From: Alicyclobacillaceae bacterium
GTDB lineage: Bacteria > Bacillota > Bacilli > Kyrpidiales > Kyrpidiaceae
NCBI GenBank assembly: GCA_029961045.1
Contig: JASBVN010000028.1
Coordinates: 1 to 36,266, forward strand
Length of the DNA: 36,266 bases
Reading direction: 5' to 3'
The notes under the pieces are model-generated. The model saw only the letters and a program-made list of their open reading frames with translations. It was not told the origin of the DNA and did no database searches. Below are positions 12,241 to 36,238 of the stretch, piece by piece (within the stretch, counting starts at the first letter, position 1; each line of letters begins with the position of its first letter). The translations under genes and the position numbers were made by a program.

Positions 12241-12308
12241 CCCCGTATAACGCCGGGAATGGGCCCGGCGGTCTCTACCAGGCGACCGGAAATCGCCTGA
12301 CTACGGGG
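12241..12308 (+). promoter_or_regulatory. Guanine riboswitch aptamer of guaA
   Basis: This is a canonical purine aptamer. P1 pairs CCCCGTA (12241-12247) with TACGGGG (12302-12308). J1/2 follows, then P2 CGCCGGG/CCGGCG, the invariant junction GTCTCTACC, and P3 AGGCGA/TCGCCT. In J3/1 (GACTAC) the discriminating base is C, so guanine or hypoxanthine, not adenine, should bind. Ligand binding should favour the downstream terminator and lower guaA and pbuG expression. Confidence 0.93.
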
Positions 12309-14038: not shown

Positions 14039-15421
14039 ATGGAGCAATTTTTTCGCCTCCGGGAGCGGGGCACCAGCGTCGGGACGGAACTTCTGGCCGG
14101 CCTGACGACGTTCATGACCATGGCGTACATTCTGTTTTTGAATCCGAACATTTTGTCCAGCACGGGGATGGAAAAGAGCGCCGTGTTTTTCGCCACCGCC
14201 GTGGGCGCCGGTATCGTCTCGATTTTGATGGGGCTGGCGGCGAATCTCCCGGTGGCCCTCGCCCCCGGAATGGGTCTCAACGCCTATTTCGCGGTGATCG
14301 CCGCGGCCAAGGGCGGCATGATGTCCTGGCAAGTGGCCCTGGGAGCGGTCTTTATTTCGGGCATCATTTTTATTCTTTTGACCGTGACCAAAATTCGCCA
14401 GCTCCTCGTGGCGGCCGTGCCGGACGCGCTGAAAATGGCGATCACGGTGGGCATCGGGCTGTTCATCACCCTGATCGGCTTGAAAACCGGGCAAATCACC
14501 AGTGTCCAGTACGTCGGCGGGCCGTCGCAGCAGGCGATTTCCCAGGGCGGGACGCCGGTGCTTCAGTTTTTTGAATGGAACATCCTGCTGACGAATTTTG
14601 TCCACAACAAAGCGGCCCTGCTGACTTTGATCGGCCTGGCGATCACGGGGGTGCTCATGGCCCTGCGGATTCGCGGGGCGCTGCTCATCGGTATTTTGCT
14701 GACGACCCTGATCGGCATTCCCCTCGGGGAGACGGATGTGTCCAAACTGGTCCAAACGCCGGTGTTGCCGGATACCGCGCACCTGGCGGTGGGCCAGCTG
14801 GACATTCCCGGGGCGATTCACCTGGGGTTGCTCGAAGTGGTGGCGGTGTTCACTTTCGTGGAATTGTTCGACACCTTCGGCACGCTGGTGGGCACGGCGA
14901 ATAAGGCGGGCTTGCTGGAAGGCAAGGAGGGGGAAAAGACCCTCGGCCGGGCCATGCTGGTGGACGCCACCGGGGTGAGCCTGGGCGCGTTGTTGGGAAC
15001 CAGTACCATCACCGCCTACATCGAGAGCGCGTCGGGCATTGCGGAAGGCGGTCGCACGGGCTTGACGGCGATCACCACCGGCGTCTTGTTCCTGTTGGCG
15101 ACCTTCCTCCTCGCGCCGGTGGCGGCGATCATTCCGGATTCGGCGACGGCCCCCGCGCTCATCGTCGTCGGGGTGCTCATGATGCAAGCGGTCCGGAACA
15201 TCGATTTCACCGATCCGGTGAAGGCCATTCCGGCGTTCCTGACCATCGCGCTCATGCCCTTTACCTACAGCATCGCCAACGGCATCGCCGCGGGCATCGC
15301 GTTTTACGTGTTGCTGGCCGCGATTCGCAACGCGTTCGGCAAGGAGAAAGAGCGGATCCACTGGCTGATGTGGGTGCTCGCCGTTCTCGTGGTGTTGCGG
15401 TATATTTTCTTGAACGAGTGA
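14039..15421 (+). CDS. pbuG: NCS2/AzgA-family guanine/hypoxanthine permease
   Basis: A 460-residue polytopic membrane protein with about 12-14 hydrophobic helices. AzgA/PbuG-type signatures include ELLAGLTTFMTMAYILFLNP near the N-terminus, LPVALAPGMGLNAYF, and FVELFDTFGTLVGTANKAG with the later SLGALLGTSTITAYIESASG. It should import guanine and hypoxanthine with protons. GGGAGGGG stands before ATG 14039. No separate promoter or aptamer lies in the 56-base gap after guaA (only a short CCGGC/GCCGG hairpin), so the guaA riboswitch should govern both genes. This lets guanine shut off its own synthesis and uptake. Confidence 0.93.
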   Translation: MEQFFRLRERGTSVGTELLAGLTTFMTMAYILFLNPNILSSTGMEKSAVFFATAVGAGIVSILMGLAANLPVALAPGMGLNAYFAVIAAAKGGMMSWQVALGAVFISGIIFILLTVTKIRQLLVAAVPDALKMAITVGIGLFITLIGLKTGQITSVQYVGGPSQQAISQGGTPVLQFFEWNILLTNFVHNKAALLTLIGLAITGVLMALRIRGALLIGILLTTLIGIPLGETDVSKLVQTPVLPDTAHLAVGQLDIPGAIHLGLLEVVAVFTFVELFDTFGTLVGTANKAGLLEGKEGEKTLGRAMLVDATGVSLGALLGTSTITAYIESASGIAEGGRTGLTAITTGVLFLLATFLLAPVAAIIPDSATAPALIVVGVLMMQAVRNIDFTDPVKAIPAFLTIALMPFTYSIANGIAAGIAFYVLLAAIRNAFGKEKERIHWLMWVLAVLVVLRYIFLNE

Positions 15422-22212: not shown

Positions 22213-22242
22213 TTGACAGCGGCGGAACGGGGTTGATAGACT
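22213..22242 (+). promoter_or_regulatory. Promoter of the pur operon
   Basis: A perfect TTGACA (22213-22218) and TAGACT (22237-22242) are 18 bases apart. Transcription should start near 22249, leaving about 80 bases before the guanine aptamer, including a CGCGG/CCGCG hairpin. Confidence 0.65.
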
Positions 22243-22330
22243 ATAGAAGCGCGGGGAAACCTCCGCGAGCGAACGGCAAAGGAGCATTTGACAGGAAAGA
22301 TCAAGTCGTATGAGATTTCGGAAAGGCGGA

Positions 22331-22397
22331 CTCGTATATCCTCGGGAATACGGCCCGAGAGTCTCTACCCGGCGACCGTAAATGGCCGGACTACGAG
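22331..22397 (+). promoter_or_regulatory. Guanine riboswitch aptamer of the pur operon (first of a tandem pair)
   Basis: P1 pairs CTCGTA (22331-22336) with TACGAG (22392-22397). P2 is CTCGGG/CCCGAG, the junction AGTCTCTACC is invariant, P3 is CCGGC/GCCGG, and J3/1 ACTAC places C at the specificity position, so guanine or hypoxanthine should bind. It is a close relative of the guaA aptamer at 12241. No terminator stands between it and the following aptamer. Confidence 0.93.
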
Positions 22398-22403
22398 GGA
22401 AAG

Positions 22404-22500
22404 TGAGCCTAGGGTTCCGACTGGCGGCCTGAAGCCAGGGCGGTCCGAGCGGCTCAGGCGCCGCGTGTGTGTGGTGTCACACCGTAGGGATAAAAGCCCA
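22404..22500 (+). promoter_or_regulatory. ykkC-class aptamer, probable PRPP riboswitch (subtype 2b)
   Basis: The ykkC scaffold is clear: CCTAGGGTTCCG (22408-22419), GGTCCGAG (22442-22449), and the signature GGGATAAAAGCCC (22487-22499) preceded by CACCGTA. ykkC RNAs include guanidine-I switches and subtype 2 switches for ppGpp (2a) and PRPP (2b). PRPP is preferred because the RNA precedes purE, and published PRPP switches stand in tandem behind a guanine aptamer at purine genes. I did not verify the single-nucleotide determinant that separates PRPP from ppGpp. Ligand binding should hold GCCC in the aptamer and prevent the terminator. Confidence 0.82.
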
Positions 22501-22563
22501 GGCGGCAGGTTTCACTCGTCGGGGAAGCCTGTCGCTTGGGCATTCTTTTTGAGCATTCTTTTT
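22496..22563 (+). terminator. Shared terminator of the tandem riboswitch
   Basis: Arms 22496-22512 and 22525-22541 pair over 17 positions with three G-U wobbles, loop 12 nt, followed by two copies of GCATTCTTTTT (22540-22550 and 22553-22563). The 5' arm begins with the GCCC that ends the ykkC-class signature, so aptamer and terminator exclude each other. Confidence 0.88.
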
Positions 22564-22612
22564 GGACGGCGATCCGGAAAAGCGGCGCAAGGAAACGGAA
22601 GGAGGGCCTTTC

Positions 22613-23131
22613 GTGAGCAAACGGGTGCTGATTCTGATGGGCAGCGATTCCGATCTCAAGATCATGAAAGGGGCTTGCGAAGCCCTGGAAGACTTGGGAG
22701 TCGGATACGAGGTGCGGATTTCCTCGGCCCACCGGGTGCCGGACAAGACGGCCGATCTGGCCAAGGGCGCCGCGCAGCGGGGCTTCGGCGCCATCATCGC
22801 CGGAGCGGGCGGGGCAGCCCACCTGCCCGGCGTCTTGGCGGCCCACACCACCCTGCCCGTGATCGGCGTGCCGATCGACACGGGAAGTTTGCGCGGCGTA
22901 GACGCCCTTTACGCCATCGTCCAAATGCCCAAGGGCATTCCGGTGGCCACGGTGGCGGTCAACGGGGCTTATAATGCCGGATTGTTGGCGGCCCAGATCC
23001 TGGCGGTCGGAGACGAGGCCCTGGCGCGGCGGCTGTCGGAGTACAGGGCGAAGATGGCGGCTCAGGTGGAAGAAAAGGACGCCGACTTGCAAAAGCTCGG
23101 CGTGGAGGGATATTTGGCCCGCCGGTCCTGA
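22613..23131 (+). CDS. purE: 5-(carboxyamino)imidazole ribonucleotide mutase / AIR carboxylase
   Basis: A 172-residue PurE. The N-terminal ILMGSDSDLKIM binds the substrate phosphate, SSAHRVPDK carries the catalytic His, and AGAGGAAHLPGVLAAHTTLPVIGVP with NAGLLAAQIL are family signatures. Class I PurE isomerises N5-CAIR made by PurK; class II carboxylates AIR directly with CO2. No purK follows here, so either purK is elsewhere or this PurE works as a carboxylase, a point the sequence alone does not settle. GTG 22613 follows GGAGGG. It is the first gene after the tandem riboswitch terminator. Confidence 0.95.
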   Translation: MSKRVLILMGSDSDLKIMKGACEALEDLGVGYEVRISSAHRVPDKTADLAKGAAQRGFGAIIAGAGGAAHLPGVLAAHTTLPVIGVPIDTGSLRGVDALYAIVQMPKGIPVATVAVNGAYNAGLLAAQILAVGDEALARRLSEYRAKMAAQVEEKDADLQKLGVEGYLARRS

Positions 23132-31160: not shown

Positions 31161-31801
31161 CGGCGTCCCGGACGGTCAACCTGGCGGTGTTCGCTTCCGG
31201 ATCCGGGTCGAACCTCCAGCGCCTTCTCGATCTGGACCGGGAGGGCGACCTGGCCGGCGGCCGCGTCGTGCTCGTGGTCTCGGACAAGCCGGACTGCCGG
31301 GCCTTGGAGCGGGCCCGGCAAGCGGGGGTGGCGACCTTCGCCTTCAACCCCAAAGACTACCCGGACAAGCCCGCGTACGAGAGGGAGATTCTCGCCCGGT
31401 TGCGGGAACACCATGTCGAGTGGATTGTGCTGGCCGGCTACATGCGCCTCGTGGGGGAGGTGCTCCTCGGCGCTTACGGGGGGCGGATCATCAACCTGCA
31501 CCCTTCGCTTTTGCCGCAGTTCCCGGGCAAGGACGCCATCGGCCAGGCCCTGGCGGCGGGGGTGCGCGAGACGGGGGTCACGGTGCATTTTGTCGACGAA
31601 GGGATGGATACGGGGCCGGTCATCGCCCAGGAGCCGGTGCCGGTGGATCCGGACGACGACCACGAGTCCCTCGCGGCCAAAATCCACGCGGTGGAGCACC
31701 GGCTCCTTCCGTCGGTGGTCCGGTCCCTGGTGCGGGGTGAAGTGTGGTTGGAAGGCCGGCGCGTGTGCCGGCGCGGCGAGGAGAGGTCGGAATCCCTATG
31801 A
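31157..31801 (+). CDS. purN: Phosphoribosylglycinamide formyltransferase
   Basis: A 214-residue GAR transformylase using 10-formyltetrahydrofolate. LAVFASGSGSNLQRLL binds the substrate phosphate. The catalytic triad is Asn113, His115 (IINLHPSLLPQFPG) and Asp151 (VHFVDEGMDTGPVIAQ). GTG 31157 overlaps the purM stop (GTGA). In B. subtilis purH and purD follow; here the next gene is an M20 amidohydrolase whose ATG overlaps the purN stop. The last dozen residues (RRVCRRGEERSESL) are basic and less conserved. Confidence 0.96.
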   Translation: MTASRTVNLAVFASGSGSNLQRLLDLDREGDLAGGRVVLVVSDKPDCRALERARQAGVATFAFNPKDYPDKPAYEREILARLREHHVEWIVLAGYMRLVGEVLLGAYGGRIINLHPSLLPQFPGKDAIGQALAAGVRETGVTVHFVDEGMDTGPVIAQEPVPVDPDDDHESLAAKIHAVEHRLLPSVVRSLVRGEVWLEGRRVCRRGEERSESL

Positions 31802-33063
31802 CGGTGAATCTGGAGAGGCTGAAAGAACGTTTCGAAGTCATATCCCGTTTCGGAAAAATCGGCGATACGGGCGTTTGCCGCCCTGCCCTGTCGAAAACGG
31901 AAAGAGAAGCATTTGACGTGGTGGCCGGCTGGATGGAACAGGCCGGAATGACCGTTCGAGTGGATCATTTCGGCAATCTCATCGGCCGATTGGAAGGGAA
32001 GAATCCGAATGGGCCGGTTCTGATGATCGGTTCCCATCTGGATTCGCAGCCTTATGGAGGGCGTTTTGACGGGACGGCGGGTGTGTTGGCCGGCCTCGAG
32101 GCGGTGACCGCCATGGCGGAGCGAGGCATAGTGCCGGAAGTGCCGGTTGAAGTTGTCTCGTTTTGCGATGAGGAGGGCTGGAGGTTCCAAAAAGGTTTGT
32201 TCGGTTCCAGAGGGATCACAGGGAGAGTGGAGCCGGAGGAACTGGAGTTGATGGACCGGGACGGAATCACCCGCAGGCAGGCGCTGCGGGATTTTGGCTG
32301 CGATCCCGACAAGCTGCACGAATCCGTTTACCTGCCGGGCCAAATCGGAGCTTATTTGGAACTTCATATCGAACAGGGGCCCCTTCTGGAAAGGCAAAAC
32401 CGTCCGGTCGGGATTGTCAGCGGCATTGCCGGACCGCTGTGGCTGACGGTGACCCTGAAAGGGCGCGCCGGACATGCCGGCTCCGTGCCGATGCGGGAAC
32501 GGAGGGACGCCCTCGTCGGAGCGGCGGAGATCGTGGTGGCGTTGAACAGAATGGTGCAGGAGGAAGAAGGCGTTCCGACGGTGGGGACGGTCGGGTCCCT
32601 TCGCCTGTTTCCGAACTCCCCCAACGTCATACCGGAAGAAGTGGAATTTACGGTCGATCTCCGGGATATCGACATGAACCGGCGCCGTCGCATCGAGGAG
32701 CGGCTGCGCGAGGCCATCGCCCAAAGTGCTGACCGGCACGGCCTCGCCTATTCCATCCGGGAATCCGCGAATCTACAACCGCGTTATTGCGCCGAATGGA
32801 TGAAACGGATTTTGCACGAAGAAAGTCAAGCCATGGGGCTGGAGGCCCCCGAACTGATGAGCGGCCCTTTCCACGACGCTCTGGTCATGGCCGATGTATG
32901 CGATTTTGCCATGATCTTTGTGAGGTGCCGGAACGGCGTCAGTCACAGCCCGGAGGAATATGCCAGTTACGAGGATTTGGCTCTCGGTACGAAATTGCTG
33001 TACCGGGGAGTTCTGCGGATTTCGGATCAATTGTCCCGGCGCAGACGACCTACCGTCAAATAG
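31798..33063 (+). CDS. M20-family Zn amidohydrolase (allantoate/N-carbamoyl amidase type)
   Basis: A 421-residue binuclear metal hydrolase of the AllC/HyuC/beta-ureidopropionase group. Metal ligands are visible: His80 (GSHLDSQPYGG), Asp91 (RFDGTAGVLAGLEA), Glu125-Glu126 (CDEEGWRF) and His190 (ELHIEQGP). HAGSVPMRERRDAL is the dimer-interface block, and GPFHDALVMAD with RNGVSHSPEEYA closes the active site. The group cleaves ureido or amide bonds in allantoate, N-carbamoyl amino acids or related compounds; the substrate cannot be chosen from sequence. ATG 31798 overlaps the purN stop, so it is probably transcribed with pur genes, yet its codon use is clearly less GC-rich. A new promoter follows the gene. 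Confidence 0.85.
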   Translation: MTVNLERLKERFEVISRFGKIGDTGVCRPALSKTEREAFDVVAGWMEQAGMTVRVDHFGNLIGRLEGKNPNGPVLMIGSHLDSQPYGGRFDGTAGVLAGLEAVTAMAERGIVPEVPVEVVSFCDEEGWRFQKGLFGSRGITGRVEPEELELMDRDGITRRQALRDFGCDPDKLHESVYLPGQIGAYLELHIEQGPLLERQNRPVGIVSGIAGPLWLTVTLKGRAGHAGSVPMRERRDALVGAAEIVVALNRMVQEEEGVPTVGTVGSLRLFPNSPNVIPEEVEFTVDLRDIDMNRRRRIEERLREAIAQSADRHGLAYSIRESANLQPRYCAEWMKRILHEESQAMGLEAPELMSGPFHDALVMADVCDFAMIFVRCRNGVSHSPEEYASYEDLALGTKLLYRGVLRISDQLSRRRRPTVK

Positions 33064-33107
33064 GAGATTATATGACTAATTTCGTTATGTTATATTCCAC
33101 AGCCATC

Positions 33108-33136
33108 TTGACAAAAGTCAACTTTCCGTGTAAAGT
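33108..33136 (+). promoter_or_regulatory. Strong promoter upstream of the DUF2294 gene
   Basis: A perfect TTGACA (33108-33113) and TAAAGT (33131-33136) are 17 bases apart. The 170-base leader that follows includes GGATAT/ATATCC and GTCTCTG/CAGAGAC hairpins but no aptamer I recognise. Confidence 0.7.
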
Positions 33137-33310
33137 GAAGGCATAGCAAGGCCGTATGAAAAGTCGATTGCTGGAGAAACGGGATGAAGGTAGTGGAAAG
33201 GATATTTGTTTATTGGTTTTTGTTATATATCCTATCGTTTGATCGCAGGTCTCTGTAAACACCTTCACCGAGCGAGCAGAGACACGTTGCGGCTGAAGGG
33301 ATGTACTGGG

Positions 33311-33658
33311 ATGGCCGAGATCGCGAACTACTGTCAGCCTGAGGGAAGAAAGACACTGGCCAGGCTCTACAACGAAGTAAACAAAGAAATATACGGATTC
33401 GGCGTGAACCAGCTGAAAGTGGAGATTGACGGGAACATCATCACGTTTCTCGTCAAGCACCAACGGGTCACCGCGCTGAAAGCTCTGGAAGAACGATATC
33501 CCGTTTTGAAGCAGGTGATCGACTTTGCCCTCTACCATGAATTTAAGCTCCGGTTCAAGAAAAAATTGGAGCAGGAGGCGAATTTGAAGGTCGAAAGTAT
33601 CCTCCGGGATTATGACCCTGCATCCTTGTGGGGATGCACATTGGTCATTCTCGAATGA
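33311..33658 (+). CDS. DUF2294-family protein
   Basis: A 115-residue soluble protein matching DUF2294: a helical N-terminus (GRKTLARLYNEVNKEIYGFGVNQLKVEIDGNIITFLV), a central VTALKALEE...VIDFALYHEFKLRFKKKLEQE helix, and the typical ending VESILRDYDPASLWGCTLVILE. No biochemical function is established for this family that I can name. The frame is open from 33206, but the upstream part is unlike the family, so ATG 33311 is preferred; the ribosome site (GAAGGG, about 11 bases before) is weak. It has its own promoter at 33108 and a very strong terminator after it, so it is probably monocistronic. Confidence 0.65.
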   Translation: MAEIANYCQPEGRKTLARLYNEVNKEIYGFGVNQLKVEIDGNIITFLVKHQRVTALKALEERYPVLKQVIDFALYHEFKLRFKKKLEQEANLKVESILRDYDPASLWGCTLVILE

Positions 33659-33771
33659 CCGAACTCTTAAATGAGACAGGACGCAGCCGAAAGCGATAAC
33701 GTGTGCATCGCCGGGATTCATCTCGGCGGTGCGGGAGAGGCGGACGGTACTGATTTCCTTCCGTTCACGGG

Positions 33772-33826
33772 GAAAGAAAGGCCGTTGTTAGAATGGGTAT
33801 GCGCTTCTAACAACGGCCTTTCTTTC
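33772..33826 (+). terminator. Perfect 22-bp hairpin terminator after the DUF2294 gene
   Basis: Positions 33772-33793 are exactly complementary to 33805-33826, with an 11-nt loop. The 3' arm ends CCTTTCTTTC and is followed by GTTTTC, giving a U-rich run, while the 5' arm is A-rich. It is far longer than an ordinary terminator stem and would work in both directions. Confidence 0.75.
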
Positions 33827-33883
33827 GTTTTCTGCTGCCGGCGTCGAGGCGCAGATTTTGACGTTGCGAGAGGAGGACCCAAA

Positions 33884-34462
33884 TTGGACTTGACGTTGGG
33901 CAAACCGGCTGTTTGCGTGGTGGACATGCAATACGATTTTGTAGGAAAATCCGCAGTCATTCCCTGCATGGCCGACGTAGATGTCATCGCAGCCAACCAA
34001 AGGTTGTTGGAGGCGGCCAGGTCCCGCGGGATTCCCATCATCTACACTCAGGAAATCCATCGTGCCAACCACGTCGACTTTGGCCGGGAACTGGACAGGA
34101 AAGAACCCGTTCACTGCATAGAAGGAACCCGCGGAGTCCAGATCCTAGACGAATTGGCTCCTCAGCCCGGGGATTACATTCTCCAAAAGCGCCGGTACAG
34201 TGCGTTCTTTCAGACCGACCTCTTGCTCCTCCTACAGGGGCTCGGCGTCGACACCCTGATTATCACCGGTGCGGCCACCGACGTTTGCGTGCGGGCCACG
34301 GCGACCGACGCCCAACAGTATGGCTACTTTGTCTTGGTTCCCAGAGAATGTGTGGCGGGGACGAGCCTACTGCAACACGAGGCGGCCTTGGAACATATTG
34401 ACTATGTCCTGGGACGCGTGGTGGCGCTGGAAGACCTGTTGCAAGCTATTCACCGATCCTAA
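33884..34462 (+). CDS. Isochorismatase-fold cysteine hydrolase
   Basis: A 192-residue cysteine hydrolase. The triad of this superfamily is visible: Asp14 (AVCVVDMQYDF), Lys102 (QKRRYSAFF) and Cys135 (ITGAATDVCVRATATDA). ELDRKEPVHCIEGTRGVQI is the substrate-loop region. Members include nicotinamidase, N-carbamoylsarcosine amidohydrolase and ureidoacrylate hydrolase RutB; the neighbouring M20 amidohydrolase makes a ureido or amide substrate attractive but unproven. TTG 33884 is chosen for the AGAGGAGG site seven bases upstream; the longer open frame would run through the terminator hairpin. The ECF transporter genes start 54 bases downstream. Confidence 0.85.
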   Translation: MDLTLGKPAVCVVDMQYDFVGKSAVIPCMADVDVIAANQRLLEAARSRGIPIIYTQEIHRANHVDFGRELDRKEPVHCIEGTRGVQILDELAPQPGDYILQKRRYSAFFQTDLLLLLQGLGVDTLIITGAATDVCVRATATDAQQYGYFVLVPRECVAGTSLLQHEAALEHIDYVLGRVVALEDLLQAIHRS

Positions 34463-34516
34463 ACCCGTTAGACCGCTAGAATTTCGGCGAGCTTGAAACA
34501 GAAAAGGGGAGAGAAA

Positions 34517-36238
34517 ATGCGCCTTCGGGTTGACGGGATATCCTATCGTTACCCCCGCGGTTCTCAATGGGTTCTGCAAGACGTTTCTTTTCATATTCGG
34601 CGCGGTGAGGTCGCCGCCGTCGTGGGGAAAAGCGGAAGCGGAAAATCGACCCTCGGTTATATACTCGGCGGTGTGATTCCCAATTTGGTGCGAGGCGGCC
34701 AACTCGAGGGCGGATTGGCCGTGGAACCGTCCGATGCCGGGGTCGGGCTGGTGACTCAAGTCCCGGAAAATCAACTTTTCGGCTATCGAGTAGAAGATGC
34801 CATCGTTTTCGGTTTGGAAAACATGGGTCTCCGGCCTGAGGAAATTGAGCGGCGTTTCAACAGGGTTCTGGACTTGTTGTCCCTGCGCCCGTTGCGGAAA
34901 AGGCCGGTTCATACCCTCTCCGGTGGGCAAAAGCAAATCGTGTGCATCGCTTCGGTTCTGGTGATGGAACCCGGGGTGTTGGTGCTGGACGAACCGGTGG
35001 GGTCGTTAGACCCAATGGGCAAGGCGCTGGTTCAGCAGGTGTTGAAGGACCTCAAAGCGGGCGGTCAAACGATCCTCATCCTCGACCAAAATCTCGACTG
35101 GTCAGCGGAAATGGTAGACCGGGTCATCGGCCTGGACCGGGGACGAGTGGTCTTCGACGGGTCCCTGCAGCAGTTCTTCATGCGTCAAGACCTGTATCAG
35201 AGCCTCGGGGCGGTTGTGCCGGAAATGGTGGAACTGTACCACGCCTGTGCGGCGCGCGAGTGGAAGTTTCCTTTCTTCATGACGGTGGAAGAGGCATTTG
35301 CCGCATTTAAAGACTGGGGGATGCCCGGGTTGCCGGAGCCGGGACGTCCTTGGCTGCGGGAGGGCAAGGAGAGACGTCCGGTGGCCTCGCCGCCCCTGCT
35401 TGAAGTGCGGAACGTCGTCTGTGATTTGGACGGTTTCCTAGCGCTCAAAGGGGTGGAGACCGCTTTTTCCTCCGGCTGTGTTACGGCCGTGCTCGGACAG
35501 AACGGATCGGGTAAAACGACCCTGGTGAAGCATTTGAACGGGCTGCTGAAGCCCACGTCCGGTTCCGTCCTGTTTCGCGGTCGGCCGACAGAAAAAAAGA
35601 GTGTTGCGGAAATGGCCCGGTCTGTAGCTTTCGTCTTTCAACACCCGGACCACATGCTGTTTGAAGATTCGGTTTGGAAGGAAATCACGTTTTCCATCCG
35701 AGCTCAGGGTAAAAATCCCGAAGACACGGAAGTGGCCCGACTCTTGCAGGCCTACGGTTTGTGGGACGACCGGGATGCGTTTCCTCTGAACTTGTCGATG
35801 GGAAAGAAACACATGCTGACCATTTTGGCCGTGCTTCTCACCGATCCGGAAGTCGTGATTTTGGATGAGCCCACCATCGGCATGGACAACGATTTCCGAA
35901 AAAGGCTGATCCGTCTGATCAAGGAATTGCGCAGCCGTGGAAAAGCAGTCGTTTTAATCAGTCATGAAATCCCCTTCGTGGCGGAGGTATCGGACGTTCT
36001 GGTTTTGATGAAAGACGGACAGATCCTGAATCAAGGTCAGGCTGACCAGGTGTTCGGAAAGAAAGAACTTTTCCAAGAGGTCAATATTCCAAGGCCCCAG
36101 GTTATCCAACTGGTGGAGAAATTGAACTTTTCAAGGCCGGTCGCAACGGTGGACCAATTCGTCCAGCATATTTTGCGCGGAACGGAAATCCCCTGGGCAG
36201 GAGGGAAAGGACGTGAAGTGGACGGGGTATGTGGATAA
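34517..36238 (+). CDS. ECF transporter ATPase, two fused ABC domains
   Basis: A 573-residue protein with two nucleotide-binding domains, as in YkoD-type ECF ATPases. Domain 1 has Walker A GKSGSGKST (37-45), the Q-loop, the signature LSGGQKQIV and Walker B VLVLDEPVGSLD. Domain 2 (from about residue 295) has Walker A GQNGSGKTT, a divergent signature LSMGKKHML, Walker B VVILDEPTIGMD and the switch His in ISHEI. The unequal signatures suggest that the two ATP sites are not equivalent. It would energise vitamin-type uptake with a T component, which starts at 36213, and an S component not seen here. ATG 34517 follows AAGGGGAGAG. Confidence 0.88.
   Translation: MRLRVDGISYRYPRGSQWVLQDVSFHIRRGEVAAVVGKSGSGKSTLGYILGGVIPNLVRGGQLEGGLAVEPSDAGVGLVTQVPENQLFGYRVEDAIVFGLENMGLRPEEIERRFNRVLDLLSLRPLRKRPVHTLSGGQKQIVCIASVLVMEPGVLVLDEPVGSLDPMGKALVQQVLKDLKAGGQTILILDQNLDWSAEMVDRVIGLDRGRVVFDGSLQQFFMRQDLYQSLGAVVPEMVELYHACAAREWKFPFFMTVEEAFAAFKDWGMPGLPEPGRPWLREGKERRPVASPPLLEVRNVVCDLDGFLALKGVETAFSSGCVTAVLGQNGSGKTTLVKHLNGLLKPTSGSVLFRGRPTEKKSVAEMARSVAFVFQHPDHMLFEDSVWKEITFSIRAQGKNPEDTEVARLLQAYGLWDDRDAFPLNLSMGKKHMLTILAVLLTDPEVVILDEPTIGMDNDFRKRLIRLIKELRSRGKAVVLISHEIPFVAEVSDVLVLMKDGQILNQGQADQVFGKKELFQEVNIPRPQVIQLVEKLNFSRPVATVDQFVQHILRGTEIPWAGGKGREVDGVCG

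Follow-up and report, generated by a model that had tools for sequence, protein, structure and literature searches.

A guanine-class and a PRPP-class aptamer precede a single terminator in the purE leader of an Alicyclobacillaceae bacterium and likely form an IMPLY gate

The leader of purE in the 36,266-nucleotide stretch of Alicyclobacillaceae DNA analyzed here (the window) carries a guanine-class and a PRPP-class aptamer in front of one terminator, and we hold with good confidence that this arrangement is likely an IMPLY gate, in which guanine binding with the PRPP site unoccupied would be the single off state. The preliminary description of the locus had predicted expression only at high PRPP with guanine absent, a logic that published tandems do not follow. 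The assayed guanine-PRPP tandem shuts off under one condition alone, guanine present and PRPP absent; PRPP overrides guanine, and the gate is on with neither ligand, which is IMPLY behavior (Sherlock et al. 2018, PMC5912903). A 2022 review counts 192 guanine/PRPP tandems as IMPLY gates and sets them against NOT A AND B gates, and in its accessible text they are the sole natural tandem riboswitches seen to act as an IMPLY gate, with the precise structural changes yet to be established (PMC9481103). The tandem in the window clearly belongs to this known class, as the preliminary description had recognized in calling the class a published one, and the locus itself is ordinary for it.

All coordinates refer to the forward strand. 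An Rfam search of the window matched RF00167 at 22312-22413 (77.7 bits, E 2.1e-12, cut-off 37), a three-way junction in which the guanine-class purine aptamer occupies 22331-22397 and P1 is formed by 22331-22336 and 22392-22397. The C of its GACTA motif stands at the specificity position, which we take to set guanine as the ligand. The PRPP-class aptamer (ykkC subtype 2b) follows at 22398-22513, beginning with the 5' tail GGAAAG (22398-22403) and ending with the 3' tail AGGUUUC, which reaches 22513. An intrinsic terminator hairpin at 22496-22541 (-37.7 kcal/mol alone) overlaps the P3 and P0 3' strands of the PRPP aptamer and is followed by ATTCTTTTT; a 13-nt direct repeat (22536-22548 / 22549-22561) doubles its U tract, so that tract and duplicate extend over 22542-22563. 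The fold of 22395-22570 has a z of -3.48, with 0 of 200 shuffles equally stable, and a scan of the leader listed no terminator between the two aptamers. The preliminary description had thus placed the guanine aptamer exactly and had the order right, a ykkC-class aptamer and then a single terminator directly before purE. Its six-base gap is no spacer; these bases are the GGAAAG tail of the PRPP aptamer, and the ykkC aptamer, drawn there at 22404-22500, is longer at both ends.

Downstream of the tandem, purE (22613-23131; TIGR01162, 204.9 bits, cut-off 149.6) starts with GTG at 22613, with AGGAGG upstream at 22600, and opens the gene order purE-purB-purC-purS-purQ-purL-purF-purM-purN read from NCBIfam matches, which we assume to lie on a single transcript. 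A consensus scan found one promoter-like site at 22213-22242 (TTGACA-18-TAGACT, with TG before the second hexamer) against 0.2 expected in shuffles, a count that is no evidence of function. Elsewhere in the window, a second guanine-class aptamer (12241-12308, 70.5 bits) lies upstream of guaA, which is followed by a Xan_ur_permease gene (14039-15421). The region 3' of purN (31744-36238) encodes an M20-family amidase/carbamoylase and an isochorismatase-fold hydrolase, together with an ECF transporter ATPase that has two ATPase halves.

Since no PRPP or ppGpp family of Rfam 15 matched the second aptamer, we built our own covariance models. The PRPP model (R1) combines 30 PRPP-type aptamers, of which 26 come from tandems and 4 are purE singlets, with one further locus (L142) omitted from the alignment owing to its length; the ppGpp model (R2) combines 18 aptamers upstream of ilv or glutamate synthase genes, the downstream gene having been checked for 16 and the other two (L063, L065) included for their likeness to L059. 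The window was left out of both. R1 scored the second aptamer at 90.1 bits over 22398-22513 (E 1.3e-23, E-values of our own models being rough), R2 at 66.9 bits, 23.2 bits less, and the guanidine-I family RF00442, in a loose-threshold Rfam search, at 59.2 bits over 22398-22506. The PRPP model was therefore the best of the three ykkC models compared, which covered the PRPP, ppGpp, and guanidine-I types but not subtypes 2c and 2d. Neither the guanidine-I nor the ppGpp model outscored it, and the PRPP type, which the preliminary description had favored over ppGpp and had proposed to check in this way, is borne out by the scores and by the G at position 96 discussed below.

Controls at 87 loci show how these scores can be read. 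All 30 tandem aptamers outside R1 favored R1, by 14.3-40.2 bits (72.4-104.6 bits with R1, 52.5-75.1 with R2), some of them being close kin of R1 sequences. All 14 ilv-associated aptamers favored R2, which all 14 had helped to train; the only ppGpp-side controls outside R2 were L051 and L057, matches of 94.2 and 78.2 bits to the ppGpp model upstream of acetyltransferase-like genes that fall below NCBIfam cut-offs. Fourteen loci exceeded the Rfam cut-off for guanidine-I. Thirteen of them had R1 scores of 33.7-59.6 bits, and the fourteenth, L028, reached 71.6 bits with the Rfam model and 93.4 bits with R1; passing the Rfam cut-off is thus not enough to tell the classes apart. The control set outside both models includes loci unclassified by gene, such as L028, L029, and L037, the last with 67.2 bits for R1 and 57.6 for R2. 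L028 and L029 (93.7 bits) have PRPP-type R1 scores and come from genomes G031 and G059.

Individual positions point the same way. The available text of Knappenberger et al. 2018 (PMC6031431), which describes the crystallized PRPP aptamer of Thermoanaerobacter mathranii (6CK5), names G96 as the main difference between PRPP and ppGpp aptamers: the G96A mutation moved specificity by a factor of about 40,000, and in ppGpp aptamers the position is absent or not G. We transferred the crystal numbering by hand via two Thermoanaerobacter relatives (L100, L115), which have A101, A103, G104, and G105 at the places given in the available part of that paper. By this numbering the determinant corresponds to G22501, and position 96 is G in all 120 parsed tandem rows, the window among them. 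The pyrimidine of PRPP aptamers at position 49 is present as C22450, as are the conserved tails that form P0, GGAAAG and AGGUUUC. Together, scores and positions support assignment of the second aptamer to the PRPP class rather than to the ppGpp or guanidine classes, and PRPP binding would follow from membership in that class.

One feature of the aptamer is unusual. A single nucleotide, C22506, joins GGCGG to AGG in the window, whereas the joint of most tandems spans two, positions 101-102. A one-nucleotide joint occurs in 10 of the 120 tandem rows parsed (from 121 extracted), the exact geometry of the window in the window only, and three PRPP-type singlets directly upstream of purE (L033, L042, L044) have the same joint with T for C. 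The R1 alignment puts the gap elsewhere in GGCGGCAGG, and the equivalent of position 101 is ambiguous. A joint of one nucleotide at 101-102 possibly removes the crystal contact made by A101, so the aptamer in the window may be missing this contact, which is weakly conserved (a purine in >75% of the consensus, in the accessible text of PMC6031431). We take the short joint as variation within the class that leaves the ligand unchanged.

The two aptamers also share a strand. ACGAG at 22393-22397 forms the 3' half of guanine P1 and is complementary to two copies of CUCGU, one at 22331-22335 within P1 and the other at 22515-22519 on the 3' side of the PRPP aptamer. The latter pairing would prolong the P0 helix (22399-22402/22510-22513) across one G-A mismatch, making 22510-22519 the P0 3' strand UUUC with its predicted extension and ACGAG the predicted 5' half of an extended P0. 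For the T. mathranii tandem, a predicted structure has led to the proposal that P0 and P1 are mutually exclusive (Knappenberger et al. 2018, PMC6031431, available text). Across 83 distinct tandem combinations, a tandem's own PRPP tail re-pairs a mean of 4.61 of the six P1 3'-strand bases, compared to 4.40 when tails are dealt among tandems (0 of 2000 deals reach 4.61) and 3.70 when tail letters are shuffled (maximum 3.98 in 1000). These combinations come from an extraction of 121 rows that include same-place repeats, with 16 unparsed loci dropped and two loci not ending in AAA (L125, L181) excluded. Every combination retains at least three re-pairing bases. At the commonest spacing, two P1 positions are both paired in 62 of 68 combinations and not in the other 6; two-sided changes at these positions read TG/CA in three combinations and AA/TT in one. 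Rare P1 strands (12 combinations) form 4.25 pairs with their own tails and 3.96 with common tails. On average, then, strand sharing across tandems exceeds two controls, by a small margin over dealt tails; margins this small among related sequences amount to support for strand sharing rather than proof, and kinship alone can produce the difference between 4.61 and 4.40.

We propose that bound guanine would hold ACGAG in P1, so that P0 would stay short and the nascent RNA would form the terminator more easily, the 5' arm of which would consist of the P3 and P0 3' strands of the PRPP aptamer. Bound PRPP would lock P0 and P3, take ACGAG from P1, and block the terminator. For a transcript truncated at 22519, folding predicts -82.3 kcal/mol for extended P0 with P3 and -77.7 for P1 with short P0 and P3, and by these 4.6 kcal/mol P1 would cost the PRPP fold stability. 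However, P1 forced alone is slightly better (-83.4 kcal/mol) than extended P0 with P3; by 22530 it stands at -90.5 versus -85.0 for the PRPP fold, and once the terminator is complete the unconstrained fold reaches -112.6 versus -91.2. These energies do not favor the PRPP fold by themselves, so they do not predict the ligand-free on-state on which IMPLY logic is based, and any IMPLY behavior of this leader would need to come from folding kinetics or from ligand binding. Ligand binding, gate logic, and folding order of this tandem are in this sense what we infer from its class and architecture.

Of 398 sampled genomes of the bacterium's class, 48 contain the exact tandem DNA pattern, which is also present in at least 119 stretches of a species-level collection, one of them (L082) an apparent chance match; the same exact pattern for an adenine tandem, with GATTA for GACTA, was found in 0 of the 398 genomes. 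Among the genome of the window and 60 relatives, 58 of 61 genomes have purE, and the 58 leaders comprise 10 tandems, 4 with a PRPP-type aptamer only, 20 with a guanine aptamer only (including 1 that retains a PRPP remnant), and 24 that have no aptamer of either kind. Three purE leaders of the sister genus (L192, L193, L194) show three different breakage states of the same tandem, with no PRPP-model match among the matches listed. In genome G002, the PRPP core has been replaced or lost, but a guanine aptamer of 68.6 bits survives, as does a terminator-like end that includes the PRPP 3' tail; the leader of G001 breaks off inside the guanine aptamer; and G003, an incomplete genome of about 100 contigs, has the P1 5' strand alone beside a terminator-like end. 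Since alignment places the ends of two deleted leaders poorly, these ends were taken from the sequences. In G050 (L197:1276-1403), a guanine aptamer of 96.4 bits is joined to a PRPP 3' remnant of 36.1 bits before purE, and ACGAG and CUCGU remain complementary. This leader is apparently a natural guanine-only derivative of the tandem, and remnants of this kind in relatives suggest that the tandem is ancestral to the family.

Other ykkC-family RNAs were seen alongside these leaders. On contig C45 of the genome of the window, a ppGpp-type leader (L253:1502-1607; R2 68.6 bits, R1 67.2) precedes a glutamate synthase gene and departs from bases that never vary among the 30 PRPP-type and the 18 ppGpp-type aptamers, with CCTGGG for CTAGGG and GCACC for ACACC; three sister-genus copies of it score 86-88 bits with R2. 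It looks as if one genus retains the PRPP gate and the sister genus the ppGpp switch. Four divergent ykkC-family RNAs (L061, L062, L064, L067), with cores such as CACCTATTGACATAAAAGGTCCGAGGGG in L061, are possibly another ykkC subtype; L061, L062, and L067 score below 50 bits with both R1 and R2, and the gene downstream of L062 matches no NCBIfam model.

Four other readings of the leader were weighed. The short 3' joint raised the candidate of a guanine-ppGpp tandem, in which the second aptamer would sense ppGpp ahead of one terminator. The ppGpp riboswitch (ykkC 2a) has the same fold and a similar joint: GGCGGCAGG, one base short, equals GCGGCAGG of several ppGpp-type aptamers, and the second aptamer still reaches 66.9 bits with R2. 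However, the ppGpp riboswitch is without G96, non-G or absent in ppGpp aptamers in the accessible text of PMC6031431, and the window has G22501; its relatives here precede ilv or glutamate synthase genes, and the tandem lies before purE; and the one-nucleotide joint recurs in the PRPP-type singlets before purE. We regard a ppGpp sensor as highly unlikely and reject it on G96 together with the 23.2-bit lead of the PRPP model. A guanidine-I riboswitch has still less to recommend it, to the point of being negligible. Its family, RF00442, was the sole ykkC-type Rfam family matched (E 4.4e-10), and its P1-P3 scaffold is present in the window, but 59.2 bits is below the cut-off of 63, a line that L028 shows not to be clean, whereas another contig of the same genome carries a guanidine-I match of 82 bits. 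Guanidine-I riboswitches have A at position 49 and no P0 (PMC6031431, available text); the window has C, conserved P0 tails, and a purE context.

If the aptamer is PRPP class, the tandem could still be degenerate, with only the guanine arm working, a condition suggested for relatives by G002 and G050. Three broken sister-genus leaders and the unusual joint speak for this, but the window keeps the positions invariant in the 30 R1 aptamers, compared by eye, and its R1 score lies inside the held-out range of 72.4-104.6 bits; degeneracy appears very unlikely. Two independent switches with NOT guanine AND PRPP logic, as the preliminary description read the locus, would agree with the order of an OFF switch followed by an ON switch. 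This we consider very unlikely, given that no terminator was seen between the aptamers and that a single terminator overlapping the PRPP aptamer is the layout set apart from NOT A AND B gates in the accessible part of PMC9481103. An intact guanine-PRPP tandem with a shared terminator and IMPLY logic is thus the reading we prefer.

That tandem resembles those of Sherlock et al. (PMC5912903) in its guanine aptamer immediately 5' of a 2b aptamer, its single terminator, its downstream purine-biosynthesis gene, and its P1 stems 6 nt apart (22397 to 22404), where 5-7 nt is typical. Unlike them, it has a one-nucleotide 3' joint in a geometry of its own and a duplicated U tract. With 6CK5 (PMC6031431, available text), it shares G96, P0-forming tails, and a P0 proposed to be incompatible with guanine P1, but five of its six P1 bases could join the extended P0 across a single G-A mismatch, and it may lack an equivalent of A101. 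A comparative strand-sharing test, a decay series in relatives, and the shortened joint did not turn up in searches of the main texts of an open-access library.

We lean slightly toward a broader model in which all guanine-PRPP tandems run on one strand exchange, the two sensors competing for a guanine P1 3' strand that doubles as the outer part of PRPP P0, and the gate can decay piecewise to guanine-only leaders that keep the P0 pairing as an antiterminator. Under this model, the window would carry the intact member of the family, the sister genus would have lost the gate, and the shortened PRPP pocket may shift its threshold. With strand sharing seen on average and with guanine-only and broken derivatives occurring naturally, the proposed mechanism becomes directly testable by a few paired mutants.
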